DNA from: Lepidostoma basale
Taxonomy: Eukaryota > Arthropoda > Insecta > Trichoptera > Lepidostomatidae
DNA length: 64,000 nt
NCBI GenBank assembly: GCA_022606425.2
Contig: JAHDVF020000582.1
Span: 112,247 to 176,246 of the forward strand
Reading direction: 5' to 3'
Translations under genes and position numbers: made by a program
Shown: in pieces, positions 1 through 64,000 of the stretch
Layout of the letters: every line of letters begins with the position of its first letter
Position numbering within the stretch: the first letter of the stretch is position 1
The notes under the pieces: model-generated
Told to the model about the DNA's origin: nothing
The model's database searches: none
What the model saw: the letters and a program-made list of their open reading frames with translations, nothing else

Positions 1-49
1 TTCATGGATTTCATGGTTTTATGAATATTAACATTTTTCATTTTATTTG

Positions 50-420
50 TATTTTTATATACTTTGTATACAACACTAGCTTTTATAAAAAATAAAATTA
101 AATATCAGACATGTTTCGGACAACCCGATCCTCCCTCAGTGATATTATAAAGATATTTAAAATATTATAAAATTGTTCACAAATATGATCAGTTTTGACT
201 GATGTTATAAAGATTTATTTTGGAACGTTTATGGTTTTGTTATAACAAATATGAATAAATTAAAATAATAATTTAAAGTTCTTATTGGGGTTCAGGTAAT
301 TGCTTACAACAAAGGAAATAAATCAAAGATTGACGTTAAATTTATTTGATTATTTATAATATTTTCTTTATTTAAATTTCTTTTTGTAATTTCTAAAATT
401 TCAAAATATTAACTTTGCAT
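50..420 (-). mobile_element. Penelope-like terminal region, copy 1
   Basis: The reverse complement of this stretch matches the plus strand at about 37640-38010 over most of its length, which lies just upstream of a GIY-YIG endonuclease remnant. Shared blocks include the AAATCAAAGATTGACGT-type segment near 320-340 and the ATATCACTGA...CCGAAACATGT block near 101-146. I infer a terminal-repeat (pLTR) piece of a Penelope-like element. No coding part is retained here. Confidence 0.6.
101..146 (-). ncRNA. hammerhead-ribozyme-like motif, one core change
   Basis: On the minus strand the order is AATATCA, CTGAGGG, an extra A, a short GGA/TCC stem II, GAAAC, ATGTC, TGATATT. The two flanking 7-mers are perfectly complementary and form stem I. 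The cleavage triplet GTC is kept. The core reads CUGAGGG where CUGANGA is expected, so A9 is changed and this copy is probably inactive. Related copies are at 37899-37944 and 46368-46413. Confidence 0.6.
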
Positions 421-431
421 TTAACATCAAT

Positions 432-575
432 AATTTGTACTCTCAAATGAATAGTTTGCACTTTCGAAAGAATGGTTTGCACTTTTAAATTAATACTTTG
501 CACATTCGAAAAAATAGTTTGAACTTTCAAATGAATACTTTGTACTTTTGAAAGAATAGTTTGCACTTTAAAGTT
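432..575. repeat. 21-bp tandem repeat, about seven units
   Basis: Units begin at about 429, 450, 471, 492, 513, 534 and 555 in exact 21-bp register, each resembling AATAGTTTGCACTTTCGAAAG with one to five changes. No length variation is seen between units. It lies next to the Penelope-like terminal region and may be part of that element. I see no coding sense in it. Confidence 0.85.
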
Positions 576-1201
576 GGCCCTTTGAAATTAGTATGTAATA
601 AATAATTCAATCTCACATCTAACCTAACACAAATGTTACTTCTCACCTTACCTAACTATTCCAAAATATTGCTAAATAAGAATCGACATTAAGGTCCTTG
701 ATCCTTTCAATATTTAAACATTCGCAAAATATAATAAATCTTCTTAAAAACAGACGTTTTCAATCTCATTAATTAGCAAAATATTTTCTTGAAGTTTTGT
801 ATCCATAGAATAAAATTGGATTTGCGTATTACTCGTGTCCTGCGTGACGTCATATACTCCCTCCTTGATACTTCAAGTGTGTGAGTAATGTACTACAAAG
901 ATGTCAGATAAAAAATGGGACCGAAAGTTGATTTATTTATTTTTGTTATCGTAATATGCGTAATGGGGTATGCGGGTTCGATAGTAAATGTATCATATTT
1001 TTATTATTTCTTAGGTATAAGCACACATTATCCCTTGCGTATAACGTGGATGATACAAGATTTATAAATCTTCAGAGAAACCGCCACCCTGAGTTTTACA
1101 AATGGGTGACTCTGTCGGAGGGTGTTGTGTCTCTGTTATATAATAATAATAAATATGCCCATATTGTACTACGTTAGATGTCTTTGGGATGTCTTTGAGA
1201 C
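576..1201. other. AT-rich DNA, no gene seen
   Basis: A short copy of a dispersed repeat (AACAGACGTTTTCA, near 750-765) is present, the same as at 3500 and 58530. A palindromic TGACGTCA site occurs near 844-851, which matches a cAMP-response-element core but may be chance. The only open frames are short and have no recognisable protein. Confidence 0.5.
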
Positions 1202-1318
1202 CAAGAAAATTGAACTGAAAAACATTTAATAAATATGCGTTTTGAATATAAATGTTATTGCATATTATTTATATTCAAAACGCACATTTATTAAATGTTT
1301 TTAAGTTCAATTTTCTTG
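1202..1318. repeat. long hairpin, 49-bp arms
   Basis: Positions 1202-1250 and 1270-1318 are inverted copies of each other with only a few mismatches, separated by 19 bases. The arms include AAACATTTAATAAATATGCG and its complement. The outer end of the right arm (TTTTCTTG) is also the start of the 92-bp tandem duplication that follows. Confidence 0.85.
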
Positions 1319-1490
1319 CAATTTTCACGTGAGGAACACCAGAATAAGAGAGATATGTGAGGTTGAGGATATTATAAGATGGAGCAGACAGCAAAAATTC
1401 CATTTTCTTGCAATTTTCACGTGAGGTACACCAGAATAAGATAGATATGTGAGGTTGAGGATATTATAAGATGGAGCAGACAGCGAAAAA
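1311..1490. repeat. 92-bp direct tandem duplication within LINE-B
   Basis: The segment starting TTTTCTTGCAATTTTCACGT at 1311 recurs at 1403. Both copies carry the LINE-B coding stretch that reads as IREICEVEDIIRW-like residues. The right arm of the neighbouring hairpin is the left edge of the first unit, so the two rearrangements share a breakpoint. Confidence 0.85.
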
Positions 1491-1692
1491 GGGACTGTTA
1501 CGATCATGTTCAAAGAATGGACTCTACCAGACTCCCCTATATTGCATTGCATAATCAACCTCATGGGACTCGTCCTCGTGGAAGACCTAAAAAATGGAAG
1601 GACAGCTGGGAATCTACCTCACAGGAGGAGCAACTCTCTGTAGAATAGACCACATAGGTCTACAATAAGGAAGAATAAGAAGAAGAAGAAAC
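1328..1692 (+). pseudogene. LINE-B 3' fragment (reverse transcriptase C-terminus)
   Basis: The plus strand encodes the end of a non-LTR retrotransposon polyprotein: residues like IREICEVEDI, RRKRDCYDHV and then RPRGRPKKWKDSWEST, followed by a stop and a tail of AAG/AGA repeats at about 1674-1692. This matches the C-terminus of the long LINE-B ORF at 23803-25329. It is 5'-truncated and contains the internal 92-bp duplication, so it is dead. Confidence 0.75.
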
Positions 1693-1721
1693 ATATTATT
1701 TAAGAAGTAACAATGTTTATT

Positions 1722-1898
1722 AGTCTTCTTCTTTGTTGTAGACCTATGTGGTCTGTTCTACAGAGTGTTGCTCCTCCTGTGAGGTAGAATCCCAGCTGTC
1801 CTTCCATCTTTTAGCAGGTTTTCCACGAGGACGTTATGCAATGAAATATAGGGGAGTCTGGTGGTGTCCATTCTTTGAACATGTCCGTACCAGTCCTG
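1722..1898 (-). pseudogene. LINE-B 3' end, opposite orientation
   Basis: The CTTCTTC tail, then the complement of the same stop-proximal sequence found at 1590-1650, run on the minus strand. The GRP-K-W region is at about 1800-1830. It faces the plus-strand LINE-B piece tail to tail, only about 30 bp away. It joins LINE-A sequence abruptly near 1898. Confidence 0.7.
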
Positions 1899-2255
1899 AC
1901 CGACTTTCAATAATTGATATATTTGTTCGTGCCACGTTTCCCTCGGTCTTCCTCTATTTCTTGTTCTATTAACATCGTTAACATTTACTTTTTACCATTA
2001 TTTCCATGTGTCTAAACCATCTGAATAATCCTTTTATTATTTTATTCATAACACTTTCATTTGCACCGCATTCACGCCTTATATTTTCATTCGACACTCT
2101 ATCATAAGCAGATTTTCCACACATTCGTCTAAGAGATCTTATTTCTACTGCATTTATTCTATTTTTATCCTTATTTTGTCAGTTCCATGTTTCGTTTCTA
2201 TACATAAGAACACCAATGTTCACTGTAAACGAATACAAATTTTCCATATTATATA
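1899..2255 (-). pseudogene. LINE-A fragment fused upstream of a LINE-B end
   Basis: Minus-strand sequence matches LINE-A: the complement of DRVSNENIRRECGANESV, then FRWFRHMEIM-like residues, then RNRGRPRETWHEQI. It changes without spacer into LINE-B 3' sequence near 1898. The join could be template switching during retrotransposition or a later recombination. Confidence 0.7.
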
Positions 2256-2731
2256 ATTATCAATTTACTCAAATTCCATAATTTATATTGATAACATTTT
2301 TCTATGGTAGTATTCTGAGTTACTTGAATTGAAGTTATAAAGCTTATTTGATGAGTATTCAAAATGATTCAAAGTTCACATCAATTGAATATACTTGAAG
2401 GTAGAGAAGATTATTAAACATTCGCGTATTAATGAATGTGGCTGAAGATATTTATGAATGTTGTTTATTCACGACTTGAACCAAGACAAATTAAGTCACC
2501 ATTGAATGAGATTCATGTTCCCGCGCGTTGTATGTAATATTTTCGTGTGACGGGAGATCATTCTAGTTCATTAGAAAACAAATTTGTCACTTCCAGCTTC
2601 ATTCATAGGCGAAGAGGAATACAACCAAAACAACTGCGCTAATGATGTGAATTCACAGCTATAAAGTAATGAATGAGTTATTTTACGAATGTGGTACGAG
2701 GTGAAAAACGCAAAAGACAATTAAAAAATCA
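2256..2731. other. no gene recognised
   Basis: Unique-looking, moderately AT-rich DNA. It has no long open frame and no match to the repeat families seen elsewhere in the window. Confidence 0.4.
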
Positions 2732-3369
2732 CTAACAAGGGGAGGGCACGACACAGAAAAATGACTTCGGGGTGGAATTTAGTACCTCCTAATAGTCATC
2801 CATAGTCAATTAAGAAGTCGCAACAGCCAGACAAAATCTAGAAAAAAAGGCATTATTTTTTTCACCATTGCTTATATATTAGAAATTGTTCCACAAGTCA
2901 ATAGCTAGGTAGCTAAGCGGATAGCTTTTTTTTTTTTTTTTAAAAAAAGACTAATATCAAGGATTTACATCAATGATATTAGAATTTATTTTTACAATCT
3001 TCAATGTGAGCAGAAAATAGCTCATTATTATGAAGAAGGAATCTGGTCGTGTCCAGGCTTGAACCCATGTCCCCTGGATCAGGAGCCAAGCGTTCTATCC
3101 CCTAGACCACCACCCGATTCTTGCTTGCTTTCTCTTTTTCGCTGGCTGCACGGTCTCCGGTTCAAATCCTGCGCCATTAGCTATTGAAACAAATGCCGAA
3201 ATTTCTCGTATATTATATATGCAACGGTGAAAAGTTGAAAAGCTTTTTTTCTAGAAATAACTGAATATTGCGCTTGCTAACTTTGATTAAGGACGACTCT
3301 TAGGTGGTATTAGTCCTGCAAAAGCACTTCCCGAAGTCAATTTCCTATGTCATGCCCTACCGGTGTTAG
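2732..3369. mobile_element. 638-bp foldback element with tRNA-like centre
   Basis: The outer 170-200 bp are inverted copies: 2732-2905 reads as the complement of about 3170-3369 with scattered changes and small gaps. Shared blocks include CTAACA at the very ends, GACTTCGGG, TCTAGAAAAAAAG, TCACC-TTGC-TATATA and CAATAGCTA. The centre has an A-box-like GTAGCTAAGCGGATAGC and a B-box-like GGTTCAAATCC, split by an inserted SINE-2. It may be two tRNA-headed repeats in inverted order or a long-TIR transposon. Flanks TTAAAAAA on both sides could be a target duplication. Confidence 0.65.
2918..3130 (-). mobile_element. SINE-2 copy inserted in the foldback element
   Basis: On the minus strand this runs from a tRNA-like head with an A-box (GTGGTCTAGGGGATAGAACG) and B-box (GGGTTCAAGCC) through an AT-rich body to an A-rich end (the T run at 2926-2941 on the plus strand). 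Two relatives occur at 59375-59465 and 61310-61430. It separates the two tRNA-like halves of the surrounding element, so it is the younger insertion. Confidence 0.75.
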
Positions 3370-4500: not shown

Positions 4501-4539
4501 CTGTCAGACTTGTCTCGGCTAAGAAGATCGCGTTATTAT

Positions 4540-6661: not shown

Positions 6662-6969
6662 TATTGTAGGGGTTGATTTCGGAGAGCCGTGAAACCGTAA
6701 TATTATTCTTAAATGCAAGTCACGCCGGAATAAGGGTGGACTGAAGATTGATGCGAAGGTACGAAGTCACATCAGTCATCATTTTTAGAATTATGGTTTT
6801 GTATAGGTAGATAGGAAATGTGGGATTTTTAATGAAAATCAAGTTAATGCAAATGGAAAACTATGATAATCAAATGATTTTACTGAAATCTCTTGATGGA
6901 AGTTCACTTTAAATAAGAATTAAATAAAACGATGTTTTTTAACTACTTCCACTTTTGTCTTTATTTAGA

Positions 6970-7010
6970 CAGCGACCGGTTTCGCCAGGCTCGCTGGCAT
7001 CGACAGACTG
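6970..7010 (-). ncRNA. hammerhead-like motif, left arm
   Basis: This is the inverted partner of 7377-7417, with the same sequence on the minus strand: CTGTCGA, T, GCCAG/CTGGC stem II, GAAAC, CGGTC. The core has U for A6. A four-pair stem I (CAGT/GCTG) is present. Confidence 0.5.
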
Positions 7011-7376
7011 GTAACACTATTGTAAACTTAGTCCTTTATATACATACAGATCAGGGGTGGTAAACATGATTCTATACAAAAATAATCTTCAAATATTTAT
7101 GTAAAATTTTTCTGAATTATTACTTGTTAAATTATTACTAATTCAGTAAAAATTTAAACAAAATTACCATTTTTCAAACATTATATATGAATATGTAAGA
7201 GATAATAAAAATTAAAACCCATTGTATTAAACACGAACCTCCAAGAATACCTGTAATACCAATAGTTAAATTCAGAAAAATTGTACATAAATATTTGAAG
7301 ATTATTTTTGTATAGAATCATGTTTACCACCCCTGGTCTGTATGTATATAAAGGACTAAGTTTACAATAGTGTTAC

Positions 7377-7417
7377 CAGTCTGTCGATGCCAGCGAGCCT
7401 GGCGAAACCGGTCGCTG
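7377..7417 (+). ncRNA. hammerhead-like motif, right arm
   Basis: Order: CAGT, CTGTCGA at 7381-7387, extra T, GCCAG (7389-7393), loop, CTGGC (7399-7403), GAAA (7404-7407), then CCGGTC with the predicted cut after C7413, then GCTG pairing with CAGT. The only departure from the consensus core CUGANGA is U at the third invariant purine (A6). Confidence 0.55.
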
Positions 7418-7486
7418 TCTAAATAAAGACAAAAGTGGAAGTAGTTAAAAAACATCGTTTTATTTAATTCTTATGGAAAACTATGA

Positions 7487-13555: not shown

Positions 13556-13775
13556 AATAATTGGATAGGTCATCCTTGGCAGAGGGGTTAGAGCTCTGAC
13601 TGCCATACCGAATGTCCCGGGTTCGATTCCCGGCGATGGCAGTGTGAATAAAATAACGATAGATAAGCTTCCTATCACATGTCACGAGATCTAAAAACAT
13701 AATATTGTATACAGTAATTGGGTTTAAACAACCTGTGGTACAAAAAATGCCGTTTTTTAAAACTGTAGTAGACTA
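13556..13775 (+). mobile_element. SINE-1 copy, plus orientation
   Basis: A tRNA-like head is well kept: A-box-like TTGGCAGAGGGGTTAGAGC near 13576-13594 and B-box GGGTTCGATTCCC at 13619-13631. These are RNA polymerase III internal promoter elements. The body (GATAGATAAGC, then CACATGTCACGAG) and the GTATACAGTAATTGGGTTTAAACAACC region follow. A functional tRNA is unlikely because the acceptor stem does not close. Confidence 0.8.
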
Positions 13776-17948: not shown

Positions 17949-18790
17949 AATATGGCGTGAACGTTAAAATTTATTGTGTTTTTTTTCTATTAGCACTCAC
18001 GTATATCGTGAGAAAACAGCATTAATAAAAAAATCACTTTTCAATGGTTAATCTCTCATTTTTACAATTACTCACCAATAAACGTGTCAACAGCTTACAC
18101 AAAAGCGTGTCTGAGAGCAAAATAACGAGAAAAAATCATAAGAAATACTTTCAAAAGGTTCAGCGGTATAATTCCTCAAGTCACTTGGAAATAATCGATC
18201 TCTCGCCAAGAGAACAATTCAAATACTCAATTTTAATTGGTCGAATAATATTCTCTATAATCACGCCCCGGCTTAGACCCGAACGGCTCTCAAAGGACAA
18301 GGGCCGAAATGAGACAAAGTGGAAAAATCCAATCCCGTACTTAAAGCGATGGTTTTTTGTCGGTTTACAGCCCAATCGCACTTGATGCGTTTCAAAAAAC
18401 GCGGCAAAACAAAATCACGCAAAACACTTGAAACCCTTATAACATTATCCTATTAAAAGTATTTATTTTGAAAATAACAGCGTAGAATTTAAGATGAGTT
18501 TACTCTGCCGTTCCGCTAACAGCTCCGTTTGCGAATGGTTTCTTATCCGGTTTCCCGGTTAATTTATCACATCAAGATATATTCTTTCTTTTGTTCTGAA
18601 AATTGATTATTTTTCTATTTTTTCCATCGTAAAGCCAGATAATCCTGTTTTGTTTGCCTCCTCGAATAATTACATCTAATTTTTTTCGGGCTTTTGTAAG
18701 TTCTCTCGAAATACGGGGCTTATAAGTTGGGGGGAAATGAACACATTTGTCTAATTCATTTTATAAGGAAAGTGTTATATATAATATTAT
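17949..18790. other. unique DNA with an unrecognised 113-codon frame
   Basis: A plus-strand frame at 18044-18385 is open for 113 codons and basic in composition, with a GC-balanced second half (18260-18400). I recognise no domain. The overlapping minus frame (18181-18381) is also open, so coding is not demonstrated. Confidence 0.3.
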
Positions 18791-18797
18791 TTTTTTG

Positions 18798-18995
18798 GAT
18801 AATCAAATGATATTACTAAAATCTCTTGATGTAAGTTTTTTGTATATAATAATTAAATAAAACGATATTTTTTTAAATACCTACTTCCACTTTTGTCTTT
18901 ATTTCGACAGCGACCGGTATCGCCAGGCTCGCTGTCGAAATAAAGACAAAAGTGGGAGTAGTTAAAAAACATATTTTTATTTAATTATTATATAT
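18798..18995. mobile_element. shortened copy of the 6.9-kb foldback element
   Basis: The left 46 bp (TAATCAAATGATATTACTAA onward) and the arm start (AATTAAATAAAACGAT, CTTCCACTTTTGTCTTTATT) match 6867-6970. Here the two arms meet almost directly: the CGACAGCGACCGGTATCGCC block is followed at once by its inverted partner, giving a compact palindrome at about 18888-18960. The central 300 bp of the longer copy are missing. Confidence 0.75.
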
Positions 18996-19402
18996 AATTT
19001 TATACAGAAAACGGTATTTAAAGTAATTTATTAAATTTAGATAATCCGTTGTTTTTGCCGAAAAACTATTGTATAATACATAATTAAGTGTTTTAATTTT
19101 GAAGCATTGTTATTATTGTAATACATATCATAATTTATTAATTAATTACTATGATATTGTCGCGACATCTATTTATCCAACTTATGTTAAAAAACTAAAC
19201 TATCCCATGTTCAAAAGTTATCCCTCTGTTTTATTTTATTGTTATTTTTTTGTAAATTGAAAAGGGTTGTTACATAACCAAAAACATATGTGTGAAAAGT
19301 GTTGTAAAAATACTAAGTGCAGTTATATTTATTCAACAAAATTATCTCTCAGGTAAGTTGCATTGAAATGTTTAATAAAAAAATATTTTTATCATATATT
19401 TC
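18996..19402. other. AT-rich DNA, no gene seen
   Basis: No repeat family or coding frame is evident. A trace of PLE-like GTTACATAACC and GTGTTGTAAAAATACTAAGTG lies at 19269-19318. Confidence 0.35.
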
Positions 19403-21699: not shown

Positions 21700-22040
21700 T
21701 CTTTTTGAATAAATATAATTATAACTTTGTATTACAACACTTTTTATTTTCACAGAACTCAAACATGCTTCGGTTACAAGTAACCTATATCAACGTTTAC
21801 AATTTTAACAATCAAACAAATTCGATTAAATACAGAATTGTGTCATTTAATATGTATTTTTATAAAAAGTGTCTTGAAAAAAACGTGTTTCCACATTTAG
21901 TATATAAGTGCCCGCTCTGTTTTATTTTATTGTTATAATCGTATACATTGATAAAGGTTACTTGTAACCGAAACATGTCTTAGTTTAGTGAAAATAAAAA
22001 GTGTTGTAAAACAAAGTACAATATAATTATATTTATTCAA
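21700..22040. mobile_element. foldback element with worn hammerhead-like arms
   Basis: Arms 21711-21810 and 21940-22040 are inverted: TAATTATAACTTTGTATTAC and ACAACACTTTTTATTTTCAC recur as complements at the other end. The arms carry GGTTAC-TT-GTAACC stem II followed by GAAACATGTC (21956-21979, plus) or GAAGCATGTTT (minus). A 77-codon frame inside is a by-product of the arrangement. Confidence 0.75.
21948..21979 (+). ncRNA. degenerate hammerhead-like motif
   Basis: TTGATAA replaces CUGAUGA (two invariant changes), while stem II (GGTTAC/GTAACC, six perfect pairs), GAAAC and ATGTC are kept. Probably inactive, but it adds another independent stem II sequence to the set. Confidence 0.45.
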
Positions 22041-22379
22041 ATATGAATCCACAACACTAAGTGAATCCACAACACAATAGAAGAAAAATTTATTTCATAC
22101 TAATGATTTAATGCGGATTTTTCGCCATTGTAAAAGAAACAATTAATAAATAAAAATATACCATATTTAAATCAAAATATTTCTCGATCAACCATTAAAG
22201 CATGTAGTTTCTATAAATATAGTGATATAACCATAATTACAAATAGTCTAGTAATAAAAAAATATATTATACTTTATAAAGCATACTTGTAAACTATTTA
22301 TTGTGATTGTGTCTTTGGTTTTTCTAAATATCATACGTATTGTTATTTAAAAAAATACTACTTATAAGGAAGACATTAC
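22041..22379. other. AT-rich DNA, no gene seen
   Basis: Nothing recognised. Confidence 0.4.
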
Positions 22380-22930
22380 TAACTAATTCACTAACCATCA
22401 CGCCGTCTCCCCGAAGGGTTAGGCAGAAAGAATGGACTGCCACACTCTTCTTTCTTGACATATTTCTCTCGCTTCCTCAACATTCATACATCGTGTCTTA
22501 CGTCGATTTCTCTGATTCCTCGCATGGCCGACATTCATTATTTGATTTATTTGATCGTGCCACGTTTTCCTCGGTCTTCCTCTATTTCTGGTTCCATTTA
22601 CATCATTAACATATAATTTTTTTACCATTCTTTCTTCATTCATTCTTTCAATATGTCCAAACCATCTTAATGATCCATTCATTATTTTGTTCGTGACACC
22701 ATCATTCGCACCGCATTCACTTCTTATATTTTCATTCGGCACTCTATCATACACAGAGTATCCGCACACATTCTTCTAAGAGATCTCATTTCAACTGCAT
22801 TTATTCTACTTTCATCCTTCTTTTGCCAGTTCCATGCTTCGCTTCCATACATAAGGGTCGGTAGAAGAACACCATTGTGCACTGCCATTCTAGCTTTTTT
22901 TGATAGGTTTTCCATTACTACCATCTTTAA
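22380..22930 (-). pseudogene. LINE-A C-terminal fragment, best preserved
   Basis: Minus strand: SKKARMAVHNGVLLPTLMYG, SEAWNWQKKDESRINAVEMR, SLRRMC, then after one frameshift near 22750 SVYDRVPNENIRSECGANDG, SLRWFGHIERMNEERMVKKL, YVNDVNGTRNRGRPRKTWHD, AREICQERRVWQSILSA. The 3' end reaches the TTAGTTAG-type tail at 22380. The domain follows the reverse transcriptase in RTE-like elements. Only a frameshift and a short deletion (NRRKTRC for NRRACMTRC) disable it, so this is among the younger copies. Confidence 0.85.
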
Positions 22931-23802: not shown

Positions 23803-25329
23803 TCATATCTCGTCGGATGATGAGATCCAGCTGTCCCTCCATCTCTTAGGCGGTCTTCCAGGTGGGCGGTGTCCGGAAGGGATTTCATATGCGGCTGTAT
23901 ACGCGAGTCTGTCACCATCCATTCGGGCTACATGGTCCCTCCAGTATCTTCTTCTGGATCTACTCCACTGAACGATATCCTCTATTTCGCAGGTTTTCCT
24001 TATGTCTGCGTTGCGGACACGATCTCGGAGGGTTTTTCCAGTAATTGATCTTAGGACCTTCATCTCCGATGTTCTAAGTAGTCCCTTGGTTCGCACAGTG
24101 TCAGCCCGCGTCTCTACAGCGTACGTCATGATGGGTCGCACGCATGTTTTGTATATTCTGATCTTGCTGTCGATACGCATGTGCTTGTTTTTCCAGACCA
24201 GATTCTTCAGGCATCCTGACACGGCAGAGGCTTTACTGACTTGTTCACGTACTTCGGTATAAAGGTCAATTTGGCTGCAGATCTCCACTCCCAAATACCT
24301 GAAATTCATCACCTGCTCCACAGGTATATCATCAACAGTCAGTTTACATCTTGCAGGTTGCCTAGATATAGTGAGACTTTTTGTTTTGTTGACTGATATA
24401 GCCATATTTAGCCTTTGGGATACTGTGTGGAATTTGTACAACATTCTTTGCAGGTCATCTTCAGACTCTGCTATTAATGCGGCATCGTCCGCATAGCAAA
24501 TGACATTCACAGTTTTACTGCCCATTTTATAACCTAGTCCCATGCCAGCTACCTCTTCTATAATTTCGTCCATAATAAGATTGAACAGAAAGGGGCTCAA
24601 ACTATCTCCCTGTCTTATACCATTGCTTGTAGGAATTTCCCTAGACAGTTCATTGTCAACCTTAATTTTCGTTTTGCAATTGGTATATAGATCTTGGACA
24701 GTCTTTATCAATGTATTTGATATTCCTCCTTCCTGTAATTTTCTTACAATATCTCTTAACAACACCCTGTCAAATGCCTTAGTCAGATCGACAAAACATA
24801 TATAGGCTACTTTATTATATTCAATTGCCTTCTCTTTCAGTTGCCTCAGAATGAAGATTGCATCTGTTGTGGAGCGATTTCGTCGAAAACCCTGCTGTTC
24901 TTCCCTATTCGTTATCTTTTGCTCAAGTTTCGTTTTCAGAATACTTGTAAATAGCTTAAGCATTGTGCATAATAAGGAGATACCTCTGTAGTTCTCTAGG
25001 TTTTTCTTTTGCCCTTTCTTAAATACAGGTGTTGTTATACTTATTCTCCATTCCTGTGGTATAGCTCCAGCGGCCAATATCCTGTTAAATATGTTTTGGA
25101 TCTCTTTTATACATTCTACGCCAGAGTACTTAATTAATTCATTGGGGATGTTATCGATTCCGGGAGCCTTCCTATTTTTCAGCTTCTTAATATGTGTCAG
25201 TGTCTCTATTTCACTGAACGTTTCTTCTACAGTAGCTTCAATTGTCGGGTATCCGTGCCCCGGGTCCATAGAATAGAGTTGTATGTAATAGAGTCCAGGA
25301 TTCTTATAAGAGTATAAGTATACATTCAC
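23803..25329 (-). CDS. LINE-B reverse transcriptase, 5'-truncated
   Basis: An uninterrupted 508-codon frame encodes the reverse transcriptase of a non-LTR retrotransposon (RTE-like by its C-terminus; clade is an inference). Visible motifs: NYRGISLL (113-120), FVDLTKAFD with catalytic Asp181, GIRQGDSLSPFLFN (237-250), CYADD with Asp281 and Asp282, YLGVEI (345-350), and a C-terminal RRYWRDHVARMDGDR and GRPPKRWRDSW (491-501) ending in a natural stop. Such enzymes copy element RNA into a nicked target. The apurinic-type endonuclease that should precede it is missing; homology appears to begin near residue 21 or later, so the first Met lies in flanking DNA. The catalytic triad is intact and no stop occurs, so this is a recent insertion, but without endonuclease it cannot move itself. 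It is the only long ORF in the window. Confidence 0.93.
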   Translation of the reverse strand: MNVYLYSYKNPGLYYIQLYSMDPGHGYPTIEATVEETFSEIETLTHIKKLKNRKAPGIDNIPNELIKYSGVECIKEIQNIFNRILAAGAIPQEWRISITTPVFKKGQKKNLENYRGISLLCTMLKLFTSILKTKLEQKITNREEQQGFRRNRSTTDAIFILRQLKEKAIEYNKVAYICFVDLTKAFDRVLLRDIVRKLQEGGISNTLIKTVQDLYTNCKTKIKVDNELSREIPTSNGIRQGDSLSPFLFNLIMDEIIEEVAGMGLGYKMGSKTVNVICYADDAALIAESEDDLQRMLYKFHTVSQRLNMAISVNKTKSLTISRQPARCKLTVDDIPVEQVMNFRYLGVEICSQIDLYTEVREQVSKASAVSGCLKNLVWKNKHMRIDSKIRIYKTCVRPIMTYAVETRADTVRTKGLLRTSEMKVLRSITGKTLRDRVRNADIRKTCEIEDIVQWSRSRRRYWRDHVARMDGDRLAYTAAYEIPSGHRPPGRPPKRWRDSWISSSDEI

Positions 25330-25735
25330 AAAAAATATATGCAGTAAGATAATTAAGATGAAACAAGAACACTGTAGGCCAGTGTCAGAGTGTCAGAGTA
25401 AGGAATATGTACAGTTCCTATGGCATTTCTGGCATTTATATGTAATTCCATAAAAATGCCAGGCAGAGTGTTCTTAGGAGACATAATAAAAAGTTTACAC
25501 AATCGTGGAAGTCTAGGAGTTACAAGTATTAACATAAAAATATTAATACAAAAGATAATTAAGACATTACGGACTCACGAGGCAAAGATCGACAGACTAT
25601 ATGGTGAACCAGGCCATTTCCATAGATTTTCATCTGCAAACATGTAGGATAAGAGCAAAAAAACTCCTGGATGTCACAATGCTGTATTCTGCTGCAAAAA
25701 ATTGAATAGTTAAATAAAGTTATTAAAAAAATAAC
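25330..25735. other. unique DNA
   Basis: A short imperfect inverted trace GAGTCCAGGATTC...TTCC is seen near the LINE-B 5' boundary. No gene recognised. Confidence 0.3.
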
Positions 25736-27754: not shown

Positions 27755-28302
27755 AGTTCTTGCTGGTGTTAGTTGGTTTTAAGTGCCTAATTACTGCCAA
27801 ATAAAAAAAGTGGATACGTGGAACATTAATTAAATCATATAACAGCTAATTTAAAAAACGGTGGATACGTGTAACATAAATTAAAGAAACACAAAAGTCT
27901 GGATCGTCCATGTCAACATGTGCAACATCGGAAAAACATTATGTGTTATTACATTATGTGCTAAATTTAAAAAAAACGGTGGATTCGTGGAACATAAATT
28001 AAATAGACAAATATGCCCCATCTAAAAATAACATTTTGTATTAAATTATTTTTATTTTGTTATTTTATTTTATATCATTGTATTTTATATTATTTGTTTT
28101 AGATTTATTTTATGGATGTTGGAAGATCGAAGTGTGCGCGGGAGATGCCTATTGGTGGCGATGAGGTTCGCAACCCATCACACCGCGTCTCCCGCGGGGC
28201 GAAAAGAGAAGGATGGAGTGCCGCATCGGTTAAAGTGTGACAGTCCATTCTTTCTGCCTACCCTTTCGGGGAGACGGCGTGATGGTTAGTTAGTTAGTTA
28301 GT
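27755..28302 (+). mobile_element. SINE-A-type element, long copy
   Basis: About 550 bp shared with the complement of 38665-39190. The 3' portion (28110-28302) has GATGCCTATTGGTGGCGATG, a GGTTCGCAACCC box, CCGCGTCTCCCGCGGGGCG and then GACGGCGTGATGGTTAGTTA, the same 3' end as LINE-A. The upstream part has repeated AACGGTGGAT-CGTGGAACAT motifs (27800-27990). There is no ORF. I infer a non-autonomous element copied by the LINE-A machinery. Confidence 0.75.
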
Positions 28303-28340
28303 TCTGTTTTTATATATCACAATTTTTATTTTTATTTTTC

Positions 28341-29005: not shown

Positions 29006-29107
29006 GATTCAATAGTCCGTTGTTTTGGCCGAAATACTCTGATACTTTAACATTATAAACTGTTAAAAATCATTGTTTTATAATATGTATTTATTTTTAT
29101 TTTACGC

Positions 29108-29155
29108 GTCTGCTATTTTGTCAACCTTTGTTGACATCATCAGGTGTTACAATAA
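29108..29155 (-). ncRNA. degenerate hammerhead-like motif
   Basis: Minus strand: CTGATGA is intact, T, GTCAAC/GTTGAC stem II is perfect, but GAAA is AAAA and the cleavage triplet is GAC. Confidence 0.45.
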
Positions 29156-29360
29156 TATATCAAATGTCAAATTTTCGTGATTTTTCGAACATTTGTGTGT
29201 ATTTTTGGTCCTTTTCATTCGAATTTGAATAATTTCCTTGATGTAATTCAAAATTGTATCAAAGAAATTATTCAAATTGACATAGGAGCAAATACACATA
29301 AAGGTTAAAAAAATCTCGATTATTTGACATTTGATATAATATATTATTTTATTATAATAT

Positions 29361-29400
29361 CTGGTGATGTCAACATAGGTTGACGAAATAGCAGACGCGT
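29361..29400 (+). ncRNA. degenerate hammerhead-like motif
   Basis: CTGGTGA (A6 to G), T, GTCAAC-ATAG-GTTGAC, GAAAT, AGCAGAC. Stem II is perfect; the core and cleavage triplet are altered. Confidence 0.45.
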
Positions 29401-29549
29401 AAAATAAAACTACAATTGTGATACATAAAAAAAGTTTATTTATTTATTCATAATTAATTTTTATATCTATTTTGTATATTACATATTATATGTTGATAAT
29501 AGTGAATAAATTTTTTTCTGAAGTTTTTTTTTAAAGTTTCAATCCTAGG

Positions 29550-46290: not shown

Positions 46291-46480
46291 ATAAGTTCTT
46301 CTATATTCGCCATACTTTTGTGTCTAAATATTTGTGAACAATTTTATAATATTTCAAATATCTATATAATATCACTGAAAAAGGGCTGTGTAGTCCGAAA
46401 CATGTTTGATATTTAATTTTATTTTGTTTAAAAAGTAAGTGTTGTATACAAAGTGCATATAAAAAAAGGAAAATATAAAA
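46290..46480 (+). mobile_element. Penelope-like terminal region, copy 3
   Basis: TTCTTCTATATTCGCCATAC, then ATTTGTGAACAATTTTATAA and the hammerhead-like block, then TGTTGTATACAAAGTG. It is the third member of the family at 50-420 and 37640-38045. The first 20 bases also match the last bases of the window (63964-63985). Confidence 0.7.
46368..46413 (+). ncRNA. hammerhead-like motif, one core change
   Basis: AATATCA, CTGAAAA, A, GGGCT-GTGT-AGTCC (five paired bases), GAAAC, ATGTT, TGATATT. Stem I is perfectly paired over seven bases. G8 of the core is A, which should prevent cleavage. Stem II is longer than in the 37.9-kb copy. Confidence 0.6.
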
Positions 46481-47269
46481 TTTATATATTATATTCCACT
46501 TAATGAGTATTATTTAGGTAAAGAAATAATATGTGTTTTCATTTTCATTTCATTTATTTGTTTATTAATATCAATAGCATTAAAGAATTAATTTCCAATT
46601 CACTGAAGATACAGATATGAATGTTTTAAATATTAATAATGTATATAGGTCCATGTACACAACAAATTAACTAAGTGGAAAAAATTGGTCATTTTTAACA
46701 ACGACCACTACATACAAATTGATAGAATAAAAATAAATATATGTTGACGATGTACCATAAATGGGTTTAGAAATAGAGGAAGACCGACAAAAACTGACGA
46801 AGCTCCGTCAGAACCAAACACCGGTTGGTTAGTTCTAAAATTTAACAATTATATTAAACCAAAAAAATAGAAAATTGAATACAATGATATGCTATGATAA
46901 TACGCTGTATAAATGTGATACGCGAAGAAAATACTAAAGACACCGTCTCTTTAACAATTCTATAAACATCCAACTTTTATAATGTCGACCGTCTCATTAG
47001 GTCCTCGCGTAGCAATTCAATTACTCCTGGCTTACAATGCAGGGCCATATCTGGCAGAGGAAGTTCTTACCACATCGCTTATTTGTGCTGGCCGGGGTCC
47101 AATTGAATATCTGCTGGTGGCGAAGTGTGGAAACCCGACATTATACTGAACTACGAGTATACAAACTATTCTCCTAAATGCCCAGGAACTCTAAATGTTC
47201 TACTAACAGTAAAATAATTTTGAAAATAGAACAGCATGCATTTGCACTCTTATGAGATTACTAACTAAC
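46481..47269. other. unique DNA
   Basis: A LINE-A scrap (ATGTTGACGATGTACCATAA, AGAAATAGAGGAAGACCGAC) is at 46740-46790. A GC-balanced patch at 46980-47160 is unrecognised. Confidence 0.4.
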
Positions 47270-48629: not shown

Positions 48630-48900
48630 ATATTTCTAGATAATCCATTGTTCTGGCGGAAACACTTTGATATTTCGACATTATCAACTGATTAATTTAA
48701 ACACTGTTATAATATCACAATTGATTAAATTTCTATGAAATTGTCATATGAAAAGGTGTTACAATCAACTCTTGTAACACCTTTTAATTGTAACACCTGA
48801 TGATGCCAACATTTATTAGCGAAACAGCTGTCGCGACAATTTTTTAGAGATTAAATCAATTGTAATATTATGACAGTGTTTCAATTAAACAGTTAATAAG
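48630..48900 (+). mobile_element. foldback element with hammerhead motif
   Basis: Ends GATAATCCATTGTTCTGGC (48639-48657) and internal inverted arms ATAATATCACAATTGATTAAA and TTAAATCAATTGTAATATTAT. A further small palindrome AGGTGTTACAATCAACTC-TTGTAACACCT lies at 48755-48783. The right arm carries the hammerhead motif; the left arm's partner is largely deleted. Confidence 0.7.
48786..48842 (+). ncRNA. hammerhead ribozyme motif, core intact
   Basis: AATTG pairs with CAATT outside an internal loop (stem I); CTGATGA at 48797-48803; extra T; GCCAA/TTAGC stem II with one mismatch; GAAA at 48821-48824; C-AGCT-G; GTC at 48830-48832 with predicted cleavage after C48832. All core bases are present. 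Confidence 0.65.
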
Positions 48901-48975: not shown

Positions 48976-50165
48976 TGAGTTTATATTCTATTTTTGTTTA
49001 TTATAGATATCTAAAACAGCGGCAGCATATACGAGTATTTCAGAACTATCCGCATCTGGTGATGCCAGTGAAGAGAACTATCAAATTTGTATTATTGGAT
49101 ACACACAGAGATTGTCTTAATTGTCTTAATAATGTCTGACTGAAAAAAATAATAATAAAAAATGGATGGTTCAAAAAAAATAATCAAGTGAAAATTTACA
49201 ATCAAATTGTATTGCTTATAAATGTCGTAAAACTATGTTTGAAAAGTATTAATATTTTGCTATTAAGGACTTATAATGACATATATTGCAAAAATGAATA
49301 TTCTCATTACTTTTAATCAATGCATATACTCGTACAACGTTTTATTTATATCTTCCCTGCTTTTCCTACTTAGGTAATTATGATTTTCTTTGATGCAGTT
49401 TTCACTATTTCTATCTTAACAAAAAAAAATCACTATGATATTATATAATAACGAGATCCAAAAGAATTAAGTACAATGCATTTGCGTTTTCATATAATAA
49501 ATGGTGCATTCATTTAAACAATAAAGAGCATTATCTAAGATGGGTGCTTACATTTCAGAGCTTTCAACGTCTCATTAGCACGAGATGAAAATCTTAATTT
49601 CACCTTGTAGACTAGAGTACAAAGGTTTGCTAATGCTCAAAACCTTAGAAGTAATGGTGAATTCATTTCGAGCCTGCAGCTGCAGTTGGTCGAGATATTT
49701 CTAAGGACCATTCATATATCGGTCCTGCTGTAAGGTTCATTACTGTATAAGTATAGAATCCGACTATTGTTTTAACCTACCATTAAATGAAAGCTCTTAT
49801 ATCAAACCAAATGAATGGCATCTTTATCGCGTTCAAATGTAATTTAGATTAAATAAAATATATTTCATACTCATAATAAAAAATGCACTGCTCAACTTGC
49901 ATTAATGCTTTTAAATGCTATAATTGTGAAATTTTGAGAAACGTAAAATAAAATATGATAGTTGGGTGTTAATATGAATTGTAGCTATTTAATATTTTTT
50001 TAAGATAATAAATTAATAAATCATGAAAAAAACTGTTAATGAACATAGTAGACGTCGCTACCAAATATCATTAATTATGATATTTATAACAGAGTTTTTG
50101 ATTTTATTTAAACAGTTAATAATGTTGAAATATCAAAGTGTTTCCGCCAAAACAATGGATTATAA
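48976..50165. other. AT-rich DNA
   Basis: At 50100-50162 there is another Penelope-family terminus (ATCAAAGTGTTTCCGCCAAA, ACAATGGATTATAAAATTG). The patch 49540-49740 is less AT-rich but unrecognised. Confidence 0.4.
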
Positions 50166-56540: not shown

Positions 56541-56611
56541 CACATTCGTAGTTTACATCATTAACTGTTTAAATAAAAAACTTTGTTACAAATATCACAA
56601 TTTATTATATT

Positions 56612-56657
56612 TTGTCGCGACAGTTGTTTCGCTAACCGATATTAGCATCGTCGGGTC
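56612..56657 (-). ncRNA. hammerhead-like motif, one core change
   Basis: Minus strand: CCGACGA (U4 to C), T, GCTAA/TTAGC stem II, GAAAC, AACTGTC. The cleavage triplet GTC is kept. Confidence 0.5.
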
Positions 56658-56665
56658 TTAAACAA

Positions 56666-56706
56666 CTGACGATGCTAGCATCGATTAGCGAAACAGCTTT
56701 TGCGAC
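56666..56706 (+). ncRNA. hammerhead-like motif, cleavage site changed
   Basis: CTGACGA, T, GCTA/TAGC stem II, GAAAC, AGCT, then TTT where GTC is expected. The catalytic core is intact but stem III loses a pair. Confidence 0.5.
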
Positions 56707-56750
56707 AAAATATAATCAATTGTGATATTTATAACAACATTATTACTATC

Positions 56751-56876
56751 ACACCGCGTCTCCCGCGGGGCCAAAAGAGAAGGATGGAGTGCCGCATCGG
56801 TTAAAATGTGACAGTTCATTCTTTCTGCCTGCCCTTTCGGGGAGACGGCGTGATGGTTAGTTAGTTAGTTAGTTAA
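56751..56876 (+). mobile_element. SINE-A copy, 5'-truncated
   Basis: ATCACACCGCGTCTCCCGCG, GGAGTGCCGCATCGGTTAAA, GACGGCGTGATGGTTAGTTA and three more TTAG units. It matches 28178-28302 almost base for base, so it is young. It ends in the LINE-A tail. Confidence 0.85.
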
Positions 56877-57146
56877 AAAATGTTTTTATTTTTATTATTT
56901 CGTATTTATGCATTTTTTTATTATTACTGTCTAGAGAACCACTATTAATTAATTCAATTAAAAAACGTAAGTATATGAAATCAACGAAAATTGAATTATG
57001 TGTAATATTTGGAATAATTTTGCTTATTTCTACCACAGTATTTGAATCTGTAGTTAGTTAGTTAGTTATTACTGTTAAAATTTAAAACACTGTTACACAA
57101 CTTATTTTTATTACACTGTCAAACAATTTATTTTTATTCGCTGAGA

Positions 57147-57198
57147 GTGTCGCGACAGCGGTTTCGCCAACCGATGTTGGCATCATCAGGTGTTACAA
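57147..57198 (-). ncRNA. hammerhead ribozyme motif, core intact
   Basis: Minus strand: TGTAACAC, CTGATGA (complement of 57183-57189), T, GCCAAC-ATCG-GTTGGC with six perfect pairs, GAAA (62-65 region), C-CGCT-G, GTC (complement of 57154-57156), GCGACAC. Stem I pairs at positions 1, 3, 6 and 7 only. All invariant core bases are present. Confidence 0.7.
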
Positions 57199-57206
57199 CA
57201 GTTAAT

Positions 57207-57257
57207 TGTAACACCTGATGATGCGAACATCGGTTGGCGAAACAGCTGTCGTGACAC
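57207..57257 (+). ncRNA. hammerhead ribozyme motif, core intact
   Basis: TGTAACAC, CTGATGA (57215-57221), extra T, GCGAAC-ATCG-GTTGGC (one mismatch), GAAA (57239-57242), C-AGCT-G, GTC (57248-57250), GTGACAC. Stem I pairs C-G, A-T, C-G, then a 2x2 internal loop, then T-A and G-C. Predicted cleavage after C57250. An internal loop in stem I is usual in natural hammerheads, where it docks with loop II. Confidence 0.72.
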
Positions 57258-57433
57258 TATCGATGAATAAAAATAAATTGTGTTATTGTAACGGTGTTTT
57301 AAATTTTAACAGTAATCATGTTGAAGTATCATAGTGTTTCGGCCAAAACAATGGACTATGTAATTTATAACAATGATTTTTTATTTAAACAGTTAAAATG
57401 TTGAAAATCAAAGTGTTTTCGCCAAAACAATGG

Positions 57434-60635: not shown

Positions 60636-60639
60636 TTTA

Positions 60640-60948: not shown

Positions 60949-60988
60949 CTGAAGATGGAGATTGTAACGATCTCCGAAATGTCGATCC
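60949..60988 (+). ncRNA. hammerhead ribozyme motif, core intact
   Basis: CTGAAGA (60949-60955), extra T, GGAGAT-TGTAAC-GATCTCC stem II with six perfect pairs, GAAA (60976-60979), T, GTC (60981-60983), GATCC. Stem III is reduced to the self-complementary ATGT, as in other copies, which implies dimeric action. Stem I is weak: only CT/AG-type pairs next to the core are clear. Stem II sequence is unrelated to the other families here. Confidence 0.6.
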
Positions 60989-61044
60989 AGAAAGACGAGA
61001 TGCCCGGATTTTCCCAAGATCCCAAAACACAAATAAATAAAAGT

Positions 61045-61309
61045 ATTCTTAAATACATTTTTGATATAAAATCCAGGAACTTACATATGTTTACGGTTTA
61101 ACACGTTAGACTAATAAATGTCAAACTCAAGACAATACAAATAAAGATAAATGTACATACACGTTTTACTTTCAAAAATATAATGGTTGGCCTAACCTTA
61201 ATGATATATTGTAAAACTTACGTTTATTAAAAAATATAAATACCTAAGTATTATGTTTTGAAATTCAAAACTGAAGTCGTAAATTAAATTTACCTAATAT
61301 TTTTTTTAA
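61045..61309. other. AT-rich DNA
   Basis: Nothing recognised. Confidence 0.4.
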
Positions 61310-61430
61310 AAACTAACACCAAGGATTTAAATCCATGATATTGAAATTTATTTTACAATCTTCAAAGTGAGCAGAAAATAACTCATTATTATAAAGAAGG
61401 AATCTGGTCGTGTCCAGGCTCGAACCCAAT
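61310..61430 (-). mobile_element. SINE-2 fragment
   Basis: ACACCAAGGATTTAAATCCA, ATTTTACAATCTTCAAAGTG, AGCAGAAAATAACTCATTAT and CTGGTCGTGTCCAGGCTCGA match 2945-3062. It is cut inside the B-box. Confidence 0.8.
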
Positions 61431-61454
61431 TATTATTATTATTTTACTATTAAT

Positions 61455-61640
61455 TTTTTTTTCGCTATTTCCATCATTACAGAGCGAGCCAAATCGATTG
61501 ATTCTCGTGGCATGTGATAGGTAGCTTATCTATCGCCATTTAATTGTCACGCGAATTCTTCACCAGACCAATGACAGTGTGACAATCACACTGCCATCGC
61601 CGTGAATCGAACCCGAAGCTTTCGGTGTGGCTAGGTCGTA
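61455..61640 (-). mobile_element. SINE-1 copy
   Basis: Minus-strand head with GGGTTCGATTCACGGCG (complement of 61597-61613). The body through TAGATAAGCTACCTATCACA to the GAGAATCAATCGATTTGGC end aligns with 25965-26183. The A-box side is truncated. Confidence 0.8.
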
Positions 61641-62300
61641 TTTAATAATTAAATAATAATAATAACTTGATAATTTAATTAATTCCGTGAATAGCGACTA
61701 ATTATCATTAACTGATAATTAAAAATTCCAAAGATTCATTTATTACAAAGGTATCAATGATTCAAATATTAACGTCATACGATCACTGATCAGAGGCTCG
61801 GTAACTCGGATTCAATTAATAATTCACAAGACATCTGAGATGAGAAACTTGACTCCGCCCGCCTGAGATCTCCCATAACGGCGCAGTTCATAAGGCAGCA
61901 GATGACCCGTGTACTCAATAGGTTCCGTAGTTTGTCATCACACACACAGACGTTTTTATTTTATTTCTTCCTTTGTGAGTCTCGTTGAAAGTAGTCCAAC
62001 ATAAAACTTTCCCAATGGGAAAATATTACTTTTCTCTTTTCCTGTTTCACCGCGTGTTTGAGATTTCTCGCTCGCGAGTCGGATCTAATTTTAGAACGGG
62101 AATTTCAACGGGCAAAGAAATGATACTTAACAATTTAGTATTTTGTTTTGAACCGAATTCAGAATATAATAAATAACTATTATTTCAGTTTCTCCCATTG
62201 AAGTTTCTATCATTTAACTTCGTTTTGTTTTATTTGCTTAGGAAGACACATTTCTTACAATATACTTTTCAGAAATAGAATAAAACTAACTAATTTACGA
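61641..62300. other. unique DNA
   Basis: A GC-balanced patch at 61790-61930 and a 63-codon plus frame at 61985-62176 are unrecognised. Confidence 0.3.
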
Positions 62301-62302
62301 AC

Positions 62303-62668
62303 CATCACGCCGTCTCCCCGAAGGGGTAGGCAGAAAGAATGGACTGCCACACTCTTCTTTCCTGACATATTTATCAATTCGCTTCCTCAACATTAATACA
62401 TCGTGTCATGCACGCGCGTCGATTTCTCTGACTCCTCACATGGCCGACATTCAATATTTGATTTATTTGATCGTGCCACGTTTTCCTCGGTCTTCCTCTA
62501 TTTCTGGTTCCATTTACATCATTAACATATATTTTTTTTACCCTTCTTTCTTCATTCATTCTTTCCATATGTCCAAACCATCTTAATGATCCTTTCATTA
62601 TTTTGTTCATGACACCATCATTCGCACCGCATACACTTCTTATATTTTCATTCGACACAGAGTATCCA
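62303..62668 (-). pseudogene. LINE-A C-terminal fragment
   Basis: Minus strand: SNENIRSVCGANDGVMNKIM, KGSLRWFGHMERMNEERRVK, YVNDVNGTRNRGRPRKTWHD, GHVRSQRNRRACMTRCINVE and then the tail region with a 4-bp insertion near 62373 that shifts the frame. It is cut at 62668 by the foldback element that follows. Confidence 0.85.
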
Positions 62669-62669
62669 A

Positions 62670-62960
62670 AATACAATTGTGATACTTTGTTTTAAGTATC
62701 ACAATTGCATTTTATTTTAAAATTATACCAAAGAAATTATTCAAATTGATACAGGAACAAATACATATAAAGGTTCGAATAATCACGAAAATTGATATTT
62801 TATATATTATTGTATCACCCGATGATGTCAACATAGGTTGACGAAACAGCTGTCGCGTAAAATAAAATACAATTGTAATACATAAAATAAAGTTATTTGA
62901 TTTAACAGTTTAAAATGTTAAGTTATCATAGTGTTTCGGCCAAAACAATGGACTATTTAT
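62670..62960 (+). mobile_element. Penelope-family terminal element with hammerhead-like motif
   Basis: Contains the inverted scrap AATACAATTGTGATACTT / AAGTATCACAATTG (62671-62711), a body shared with 29245-29420 (AAAGAAATTATTCAAATTGA, AAATACATATAAAGGTTC) and the terminus CATAGTGTTTCGGCCAAAAC (62927-62946). Confidence 0.75.
62819..62858 (+). ncRNA. hammerhead-like motif, one core change
   Basis: CCGATGA (U4 to C), T, GTCAAC-ATAG-GTTGAC perfect stem II, GAAAC, AGCT, GTC at 62852-62854. Otherwise as the intact copies. Confidence 0.5.
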
Positions 62961-64000
62961 TAATAAAATTAAGTTTATCGACTTGATTACATATGTTTTT
63001 CTTTAAAATAAAATAAAATTATTAATAAAGTGGATATAAACAGTGTTAAAAAGTCTCATTTTAAACTTACAATGGAATTCCACAGTGTGTACGCTTTAAC
63101 CATCAATAAAATTAATGATTTTATATTTGGAGTAAATTAAGAAAATACGTATTTTAAAACGATTTTATATAAAAAAAAGTTTACATTTTAACGTTTATGA
63201 GACTCCAAAGTGCCATCGACCACCAAGGACGGTCAACAAAGAGATGGAAAGAAGGTTGGTCGCCTTCATCACAGGAAGAAAGTTGATGTCCTGCGTAAAC
63301 AGATCCTAAGATCAACAATAAAAATGAGATTTTTGACATTTATTTTATTTGTTATAAGTAACAGGCGGGTATTGAATTTACGTTTTCAAATGGGGAATTC
63401 TGTATGAAAAAACATTTATATTCTATGGAGATGTTATGATATGTAAATAACTTTTTGTGTACCGATGCTTGAGCTATCTCAGCTTCCTGAGATCCACCTT
63501 AAGATAGCCTTGTAGCGCTGATTGATATCCAGACCGCTGCTCCAGGACATTAGAAGCAGCCGGTTTCAGAATCCAAACGCTTTGCCAGTCAGAGATACGG
63601 TAAAGCGTAGGAATTCTAAAACCAGCCGACCCCCGCCACTCCATGCCCTCGCCTGCTTCTGATCCGATTGAAATTGCTCGCATTAATCGGACGCCGTTGT
63701 GTTGCTTTGCTCATTTTGTGCAGTCTCGGATCTCCTCGTGATTAGTTTCACTCGCTTCCGGAGCTAAATCCTTCTGGGTAGGTCGGGAGTGTTTTCTGTT
63801 TATTAGATCCGATGTATAGATTGCGCACAGTGAAAAAAATCCAATAAAACATTTTCTATCGCTCTTACCTTTTATTATTATTTTGTTGATTTAATGTTTC
63901 ATTTAATAAAATTGCTATCGATATAAACATTTTAAATCAGTGTGTGTAAAATACATAAGTAATTTCTTCTACATACGCCATACTTTGTGTTGTTATGATG
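62961..64000. other. unique DNA with a GC-rich island; terminal-repeat start at the edge
   Basis: Positions 63460-63790 are GC-balanced; a 69-codon minus frame (63474-63683) is the best candidate for an unrecognised exon. 63205-63275 has a LINE-B-like scrap (CCACCAAGGACGGTCAACAA, AGAGATGGAAAGAAGGTTGG). The final 40 bases (TTCTTCTACATACGCCATAC) match the start of the 46.3-kb Penelope-like terminal region and continue past the window. Confidence 0.35.

Follow-up and report, generated by a model that had tools for sequence, protein, structure and literature searches.

Does a 64-kb stretch of the Lepidostoma basale genome (contig JAHDVF020000582.1, positions 112,247 to 176,246; "the window" refers to this full stretch) hold a genuine family of hammerhead-like ribozyme motifs, and if so, what kind of element carries them? 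A first-pass annotation made from the letters alone had proposed at least a dozen sites sharing one frame, in which CUGANGA and an extra base are followed by a hairpin, GAAA and a tiny stem III. By reading CTGANGA contexts and scanning the window for the whole frame, we identified 17 hammerhead-like sites, which fall into five sequence groups (A-E), and each of the seven stem II pairings quoted by the annotation could be located among them (Table 1). Sites are named by group letter and the position of C3, with (-) marking the minus strand. The motif set is real. We consider it very probable that these are minimal type I hammerheads located in Penelope-like pseudo-long terminal repeats (pLTRs) and surviving as short gene-less copies, many of them as head-to-head inverted pairs.

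A hammerhead frame with one extra base

CTGANGA occurred 30 times in the window, compared with a mean of 17.8 and a maximum of 29 in 100 shuffles. A single extra base separated A9 from stem II in 17/17 sites (U in groups B, C and D; A in groups A and E), which bears out the earlier claim of a constant base after CUGANGA. When a script compared the five bases 3' of the extra base with the five preceding GAAA in the 17 sites, 81/85 positions paired in this register, as opposed to 31/85 with no extra base and 32/85 with two; since some sites came from a scan that required stem II, the figure of 81/85 is favoured by the way the set was collected. Stem II arms swapped between groups paired at a mean of 2.4/5, whereas true partners paired at 4.8/5. 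Counting frames in the window that had five stem II pairs and no more than one core mismatch gave 11 with a single extra base, 0 lacking it and 1 with two such bases; the respective means in 60 dinucleotide shuffles were 0.28, 0.28 and 0.25 (maximum 3). With zero mismatches the counts were 3, 0 and 0, and the 60 shuffles contained none. Because stem II did not directly follow A9 in any of the 17 sites, the set departs from the standard minimal type I definition, and we treat it as a variant with a viroid precedent.

Covariation was measured on an alignment of the nine family B sites and C7381 (A5). In a 17-row alignment (A4), gaps in the rows of groups A and E fell within stem II, and pairs were therefore counted on A5, which has no rows for the A, D and E sites or C7006, and by script for the 17 sites. 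The A5 structure paired 79.2% of cells, a level reached by 1/500 shuffles; six pairs carried two-sided changes (as many in 14/500 shuffles), and the covariation score exceeded that of 500/500 shuffles. With the structure slid out of place, 17-42% of cells paired. Two-sided changes in stem II fell at columns 17/30, 18/29 and 20/27, and within family B columns 17/30 and 18/29 changed from C-G to U-A on both sides.

We scored a core as intact where C3 U4 G5 A6 N7 G8 A9 and G12 A13 A14 were conserved together with the 15.1-16.1 pair and H17. Six of the 17 sites had such a core (A37906, B48797, B56666, B57215, B57189 and D60949), and three of the 17 combined it with 5/5 stem II pairs (B57189, B56666 and D60949). 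Contiguous stem I reached 7 bp in the three A sites and 4 bp at both C sites; stem III was a perfect palindrome in 9/17 sites.

Inverted arms, one-sided tails and duplications

Eight loci in the window are palindromic (C, second C, E, B29k, B48, B56, B57 and B62). Five of these inverted repeats (C, E, B29k, B56 and B57) hold a head-to-head pair of ribozymes, pointing outward in 5/5. A tail of about 40 nt was present on exactly one arm in 6/8 loci (C, second C, B29k, B48, B57 and B62), and no tail was recognised in B56 or E; B57 has a second, partial tail further right, at 57421. The family B tail begins with ATG and reads MLKYHSVSAKTMDY-like (MLKYxSVSAKTMDY-like) in five copies. Comparing these five in pairs, after collection with a pattern written from known copies, showed a codon-position bias towards third positions: differences numbered 4, 16 and 34 at positions 1, 2 and 3. 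The tail can be read as the putative start of an open reading frame (ORF) in family B, and no such reading was seen in element C. The family B tail also contains a small AC-rich hairpin, GCCAAAACAATGG, found in seven places. The predicted cut lies 67 nt (B57215), 60 nt (B62819) or 54 nt (B29143) upstream of the putative ATG, and 96-109 nt from the end of the family B tail.

Element C is the best preserved of these units: its 211-nt arms (6908-7118 and 7269-7479) are 98% complementary, and it is flanked by a convincing target-site duplication of 14 nt. Across the eight loci we found this 14-nt duplication, an AT-rich one of 11 nt at the second C copy, 7-nt matches at two loci and none at four. 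TATATAA stands 36 nt upstream of C3 in both C arms and 47 nt upstream in E; TATA-like strings are frequent in this AT-rich window. Two family B copies abut GTTA/TAAC repeats at their outer ends (57055-57070, 28290-28305 and 56860-56874). Similar repeats stand at the end of a neighbouring repeat family, which perhaps reflects an insertion preference.

The presence of long gene-less inverted repeats at eight loci raises the alternative of foldback or miniature inverted-repeat (MITE-type) DNA transposons whose hairpins resemble hammerheads by chance. This is very improbable, as the CUGANGA and GAAA core bases flank compensating stems in five sequence groups and the termini are asymmetric, with a tail on one arm only that is coding-like in family B. 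A target duplication of 14 nt is, moreover, long for a cut-and-paste element.

Short non-coding repeats of low GC with type I hammerheads also bring to mind metazoan retrozymes, small non-LTR retroelements with tandem type I hammerhead repeats that are copied via circular RNA and have been reported from insects among others (PMC7229834). However, the units of retrozymes are in tandem, measure about 150-400 bp and have canonical loops (PMC7229834), whereas the pairs here are inverted, not head to tail, and tandem arrays hold no site: of the 21 tandem-repeat rows, not one is made of ribozyme units, and a two-copy 26-bp row at 57087-57138 merely adjoins B57189. A retrozyme origin therefore seems far-fetched, and we retain the Penelope-type pLTR as the favoured explanation.

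Table 1. Hammerhead-like sites and the repeats that hold them, with positions in the window (the letter of a site name gives its group)
Feature	Position	Strand	Remarks
A139	101-146	-	C3 at 139; A9 changed; stem I 7 bp
A37906	37899-37944	+	intact core; extra A; stem I 7 bp; stem II 4/5; stem III ACAUGU
A46375	46368-46413	+	G8 changed; stem I 7 bp; stem II GGGCU/AGUCC
Repeat holding A37906	37603-38009	+	73% identity to 436-41, opposite strand; part common with 46328-46490
C7006, left arm	6967-7013	-	A6 changed; extra U; stem II GCCAG/CUGGC; stem III ACCGGU
C7381, right arm	7374-7420	+	A6 changed; extra U; stem II GCCAG/CUGGC; stem III ACCGGU
Element C	6867-7472		606 bp, palindromic; tail left only, about 6867-6908
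Element C TATATAA	7345	+	
Element C TATATAA	7042	-	
Element C target-site duplication, left copy	6853-6866		ATGGAAAACTATGA, 14 nt
Element C target-site duplication, right copy	7473-7486		ATGGAAAACTATGA, 14 nt
Second element C copy	18786-18987		collapsed hairpin; left tail; AT-rich 11-nt direct repeat 18775-18785 / 18988-18998
D60949	60942-60990	+	intact core; extra U; stem II 8 bp, GGAGAU/AUCUCC; stem III AUGU; single copy in window
E21793	21755-21800	-	multiple core changes; stem II GGUUAC/GUAACC
E21948	21941-21986	+	C3 and G8 changed; stem II GGUUAC/GUAACC
Group E inverted repeat	21704-22041		E21793 and E21948 head to head; arms 74% alike across 355 aligned columns; TATATAAG at 21901
B28378	28336-28385	-	G8 changed; stem II GUCAAC/GUUGAC
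B29143	29101-29150	-	G12 and stem III changed; stem II GUCAAC/GUUGAC
B29361	29354-29403	+	A6 and stem III changed; stem II GUCAAC/GUUGAC
B29k inverted repeat	29052-29454		74%; B29143 and B29361 head to head; left tail 29012-29053(-)
B48797	48790-48839	+	intact core; extra U; stem II 4/5; stem III ACAGCUGU
B48 inverted repeat	48681-48899		69%; left ribozyme lost; left tail 48640-48681(-)
Lone family B tail	50122-50163	+	no recognised ribozyme adjoining
B56654	56612-56661	-	U4 changed; stem II GCUAA/UUAGC
B56666	56659-56708	+	intact core; stem II 5/5
B56 inverted repeat	56576-56744		83%; B56666 and B56654 head to head; tail not recognised
B57189	57147-57196	-	intact core; stem II 5/5, GCCAAC/GUUGGC
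B57215	57208-57257	+	intact core; stem II 4/5; contiguous stem I 3 bp
B57 inverted repeat	57068-57316		76%; two intact sites head to head
B57 tail and putative ORF start (MLKYHSVSAKTMDY)	57318-57359	+	right arm
B62819	62812-62861	+	U4 changed; stem II GUCAAC/GUUGAC
B62 inverted repeat	62684-62893		61%; left ribozyme lost; right tail 62915-62956(+)

Several other features were recorded in the window. A 21-bp unit array of 6.7 copies (429-569) adjoins the group A repeat at 41-436. An abundant dispersed repeat, family D1, is present in 8 copies of 120 nt (22372-22491 and seven more) with D2-D13 around it, and together these make up much of the window. An inverted repeat at 1587-1814, with 98-nt arms that are 90% complementary and 32 nt apart, lies outside the hammerhead set, and a tRNA-Gly (gcc) gene was called at 13569-13641(+). 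A reverse transcriptase (RT) ORF of the long interspersed nuclear element (LINE) type, 529 amino acids in length, was found at 23803-25392(-). Its listed relatives carry PF00078, and among them identity reaches about 60% to environmental or assembled proteins; named relatives are mostly insects and, among the 120 of 472 relatives listed, the insects named are beetles, a wasp, a sandfly, a cockroach and an aphid. A mir-927 precursor at 63554-63634(-), scoring 70 bits, was the only Rfam match at threshold, and the plus strand of the same hairpin scored 54.5 bits, under the cut-off. The mir-927 match and the named relatives of the LINE protein point to an insect host.

Covariance models and the case against

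A number of results weigh against the reading as Penelope-type hammerheads, and they concern the sites themselves, the models and the surrounding DNA. Eleven of the 17 cores are altered, at C3, U4, A6, G8, A9, G12 or the 15.1-16.1 pair. Stem I is a weak helix, with a contiguous length of only 0-3 bp in the 12 B, D and E sites and pairing in 57.5% of cells in its A5 columns, and the number of further pair types in A5 was not above that in shuffles (199/500). The sites are also non-independent, with 10/17 forming the two arms of five inverted repeats, and the independent groups number about five; groups A and E, moreover, resemble each other to the right of the motif. In the search of the whole window with Rfam, no hammerhead was detected at the gathering threshold and none at E<=10, and Rfam found no hammerhead in short stretches around A46375 or C7381. 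The best hammerhead score was to Hammerhead_1 (RF00163), at 12.6 bits (threshold 34; E=3.1), in a 151-base search where the match spanned 57212-57253(+), over B57215. A covariance model built from the nine B sites and C7381 (R2) detected no A, D or E site in the window. Outside the motif, 6/8 palindromic loci lack a convincing target-site duplication, no Penelope RT or GIY-YIG gene turned up among the stop-to-stop ORFs of the window or in a regular-expression motif scan, which is a weak test, and an X-padded peptide search gave no match.

The first-pass annotation had named hammerhead models above threshold as one of two checks on its proposal, and on this one the models fell short. The short stem III and the bulged base likely explain the low Rfam scores; at their thresholds, the standard hammerhead models of Rfam overlook this class. 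The stretch around B57 gave many Rfam microRNA matches owing to its palindrome, all under their gathering scores. Searching the window with R2 returned 11 strong matches, all of them B or C sites, and five weak ones (E 3.6-6); since the A, D and E sites were not matched, this model offers no proof across groups. The earlier proposal that the compensating stem II marks a selected RNA fold is upheld in part: the register statistics, the covariation within family B and the anatomy speak for it, and the changed cores and the small number of groups count against it. The 11 copies with core changes are probably dead as ribozymes.

These results also bear on a reading in which the fold was retained for another task, such as binding an element protein or guiding reverse transcription, with self-cleavage weak or absent. 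Low Rfam scores are in keeping with it, as is the A6 change shared by both ribozymes of element C, in which the arms and the duplication are so well preserved. Furthermore, in the Poseidon element PAc of the lizard Anolis carolinensis, cleavage mutants insert normally in vitro, and the hammerhead cleaves only with added protein (PMC11167929). Nevertheless, every conserved core base is kept at six sites, including both arms of one repeat (57189/57215), GAAA is retained beside changing stems in most sites, and the two arms of element C represent a single insertion and are not independent. We therefore judge this explanation unlikely, and continue with putatively cleaving hammerheads of Penelope-type pLTRs as the preferred one.

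Since neither an RT nor a GIY-YIG gene came to light in the window, the units look like pLTR-only copies or remnants, and a Penelope origin is deduced from their anatomy. Together with the size of element C, only 606 bp, this result also led us to class them as Penelope-type pLTR units and not as Penelope elements. The suggestion of Penelope-type terminal repeats in the first-pass annotation accordingly holds for the anatomy (inverted arms, one-sided tail and duplication) and finds no counterpart in an RT or endonuclease (EN) gene within the window. The units are most likely non-autonomous or decayed Penelope pLTR units, and most copies are probably inactive.

Known systems and a model for the units

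Penelope pLTR hammerheads, inverted pLTRs and tails are already published; the consistent extra base and palindromes made of pLTRs only are less familiar. Penelope hammerheads have been described as minimal type I forms whose role is unknown (PMC7761336), acting as dimers via the palindromic stem III loops of tandem copies (PMC6466107). The present sites resemble published pLTR hammerheads of Penelope-like elements (Cervera and De la Pena 2014; Luense, Weinberg and Breaker 2017; both via citing reviews) in their type I part order, their location in a pLTR, a helix III that is tiny or missing and a palindromic stem III. They may differ in having the extra base after A9 at every site. They also lie head to head, whereas the published copies are in tandem, and this layout leaves no same-strand tandem dimer partner within the unit.

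In the Penelope elements of the rotifer Adineta vaga (PMC3846280), pLTRs are inverted, with head-to-head arrangements and palindromes at the junction, an optional tail of 31 bp at one inverted pLTR and a TATA box; the first 12 to 22 ORF codons lie inside the pLTR plus tail, and duplications of 8-10 bp occur in some copies and are lacking in others. The units in the window share the inverted pLTRs with a palindromic junction, the optional one-sided tail and the TATA box, and may share the ORF start, putative in family B, and the variable duplication. Rotifer copies carry or derive from an RT-EN ORF (PMC3846280), whereas none was seen here, and hammerheads go unmentioned in that paper (0 occurrences). 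In PAc, priming takes place in an AC-rich stem loop 111-118 bp into the ORF, which corresponds to the tail; the hammerhead cut precedes this priming site by 85-92 nt (PMC11167929). The family B units are alike in having a hammerhead near a putative ORF start, an AC-rich stem loop in the tail and a similar distance from cut to tail. They differ in that the predicted cut falls 54-67 nt before the putative ATG, whereas the PAc cut lies 26 bp inside the ORF (PMC11167929). A literature search covering titles and abstract openings, with most subscription journals outside its reach, found no report on hammerheads in insect palindromic pLTR units.

The plus-strand hammerhead of chrysanthemum chlorotic mottle viroid also has an extra nucleotide in its catalytic core, which lies between A9 and 10.1. 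This nucleotide weakens cleavage (PMC11014351). The viroid case involves a viroid RNA and one extra A, whereas here U or A is found in five groups of a genomic repeat.

We also scanned sequence collections, which hold few or no animal genomes, and none of the matches was shown to be a relative. The family B pattern gave 0 matches in viral contigs. A looser frame gave 8, with one stem II pair in 8/8, and the ORFs of four of these (L001, L003, L005 and L007) look like phage genes. The extra-base frame with GGC/GCC gave 11 near-identical matches (L009-L019), eleven viral contigs with a common conserved, hammerhead-like CTGATGATGGCTGTTAGGCCGAAACGGGT that has an extra U and 4 stem II pairs but, in the order tested, lacks a contiguous stem I. 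For the frame without the extra base there were 15 matches, which have 0-5 stem I and 3-5 stem II pairs. Prokaryote genomes yielded 46 matches, 7/46 with at least 4 stem II pairs. Two of the collection matches (L036 and L067) are one sequence found twice in a Desulfobacterales metagenome-assembled genome, with the extra-base frame, 5 stem II and 3 stem I pairs. A scan of 257 billion bases thus also brings up the extra-base frame alone in prokaryotic DNA.

A possible course of events for the units is as follows. Transcription would start upstream of the ribozyme, at the TATA boxes seen in C and E, and the ribozyme would fold from stem I, the variable stem II and the tiny self-complementary stem III, which could also pair two RNAs together. 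The RNA would be cut after the NUH triplet, ahead of the putative family B ORF start. An element protein, encoded elsewhere in the genome and acting in trans, would nick AT-rich DNA, and reverse transcription may begin at an internal point of the RNA, the AC-rich hairpin GCCAAAACAAUGG close to the ORF start, which would leave behind the optional tail. The inverted arm could then be added during insertion, by self-priming or by a second priming event. The same A6 change in both ribozymes of element C agrees with cleavage being dispensable for insertion, although a single insertion is weak evidence.

The sites add members to a kind already known, and they share one consistent variant of the core. 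The extra base may be a general Penelope feature, and similar CTGAAGATG...GAAACGTC sequences presumably occur in other invertebrate repeats. A bolder conjecture, which we put forward tentatively and regard as doubtful, is that insect Penelope-type hammerheads share a fixed bulge between A9 and stem II, and that the head-to-head pairs are stand-alone palindromic units in which each arm fires outward from its own promoter and ribozyme, with cleavage needing a Penelope protein or a partner RNA. What Penelope hammerheads do is not settled: in the one in vitro system, the ribozyme needs protein and is dispensable for insertion (PMC11167929). With five groups, and with intact copies lying next to natural core mutants, the 64-kb window provides a small test set for asking which core changes are tolerated, how important the extra base is and whether inverted pLTR units can move by themselves.

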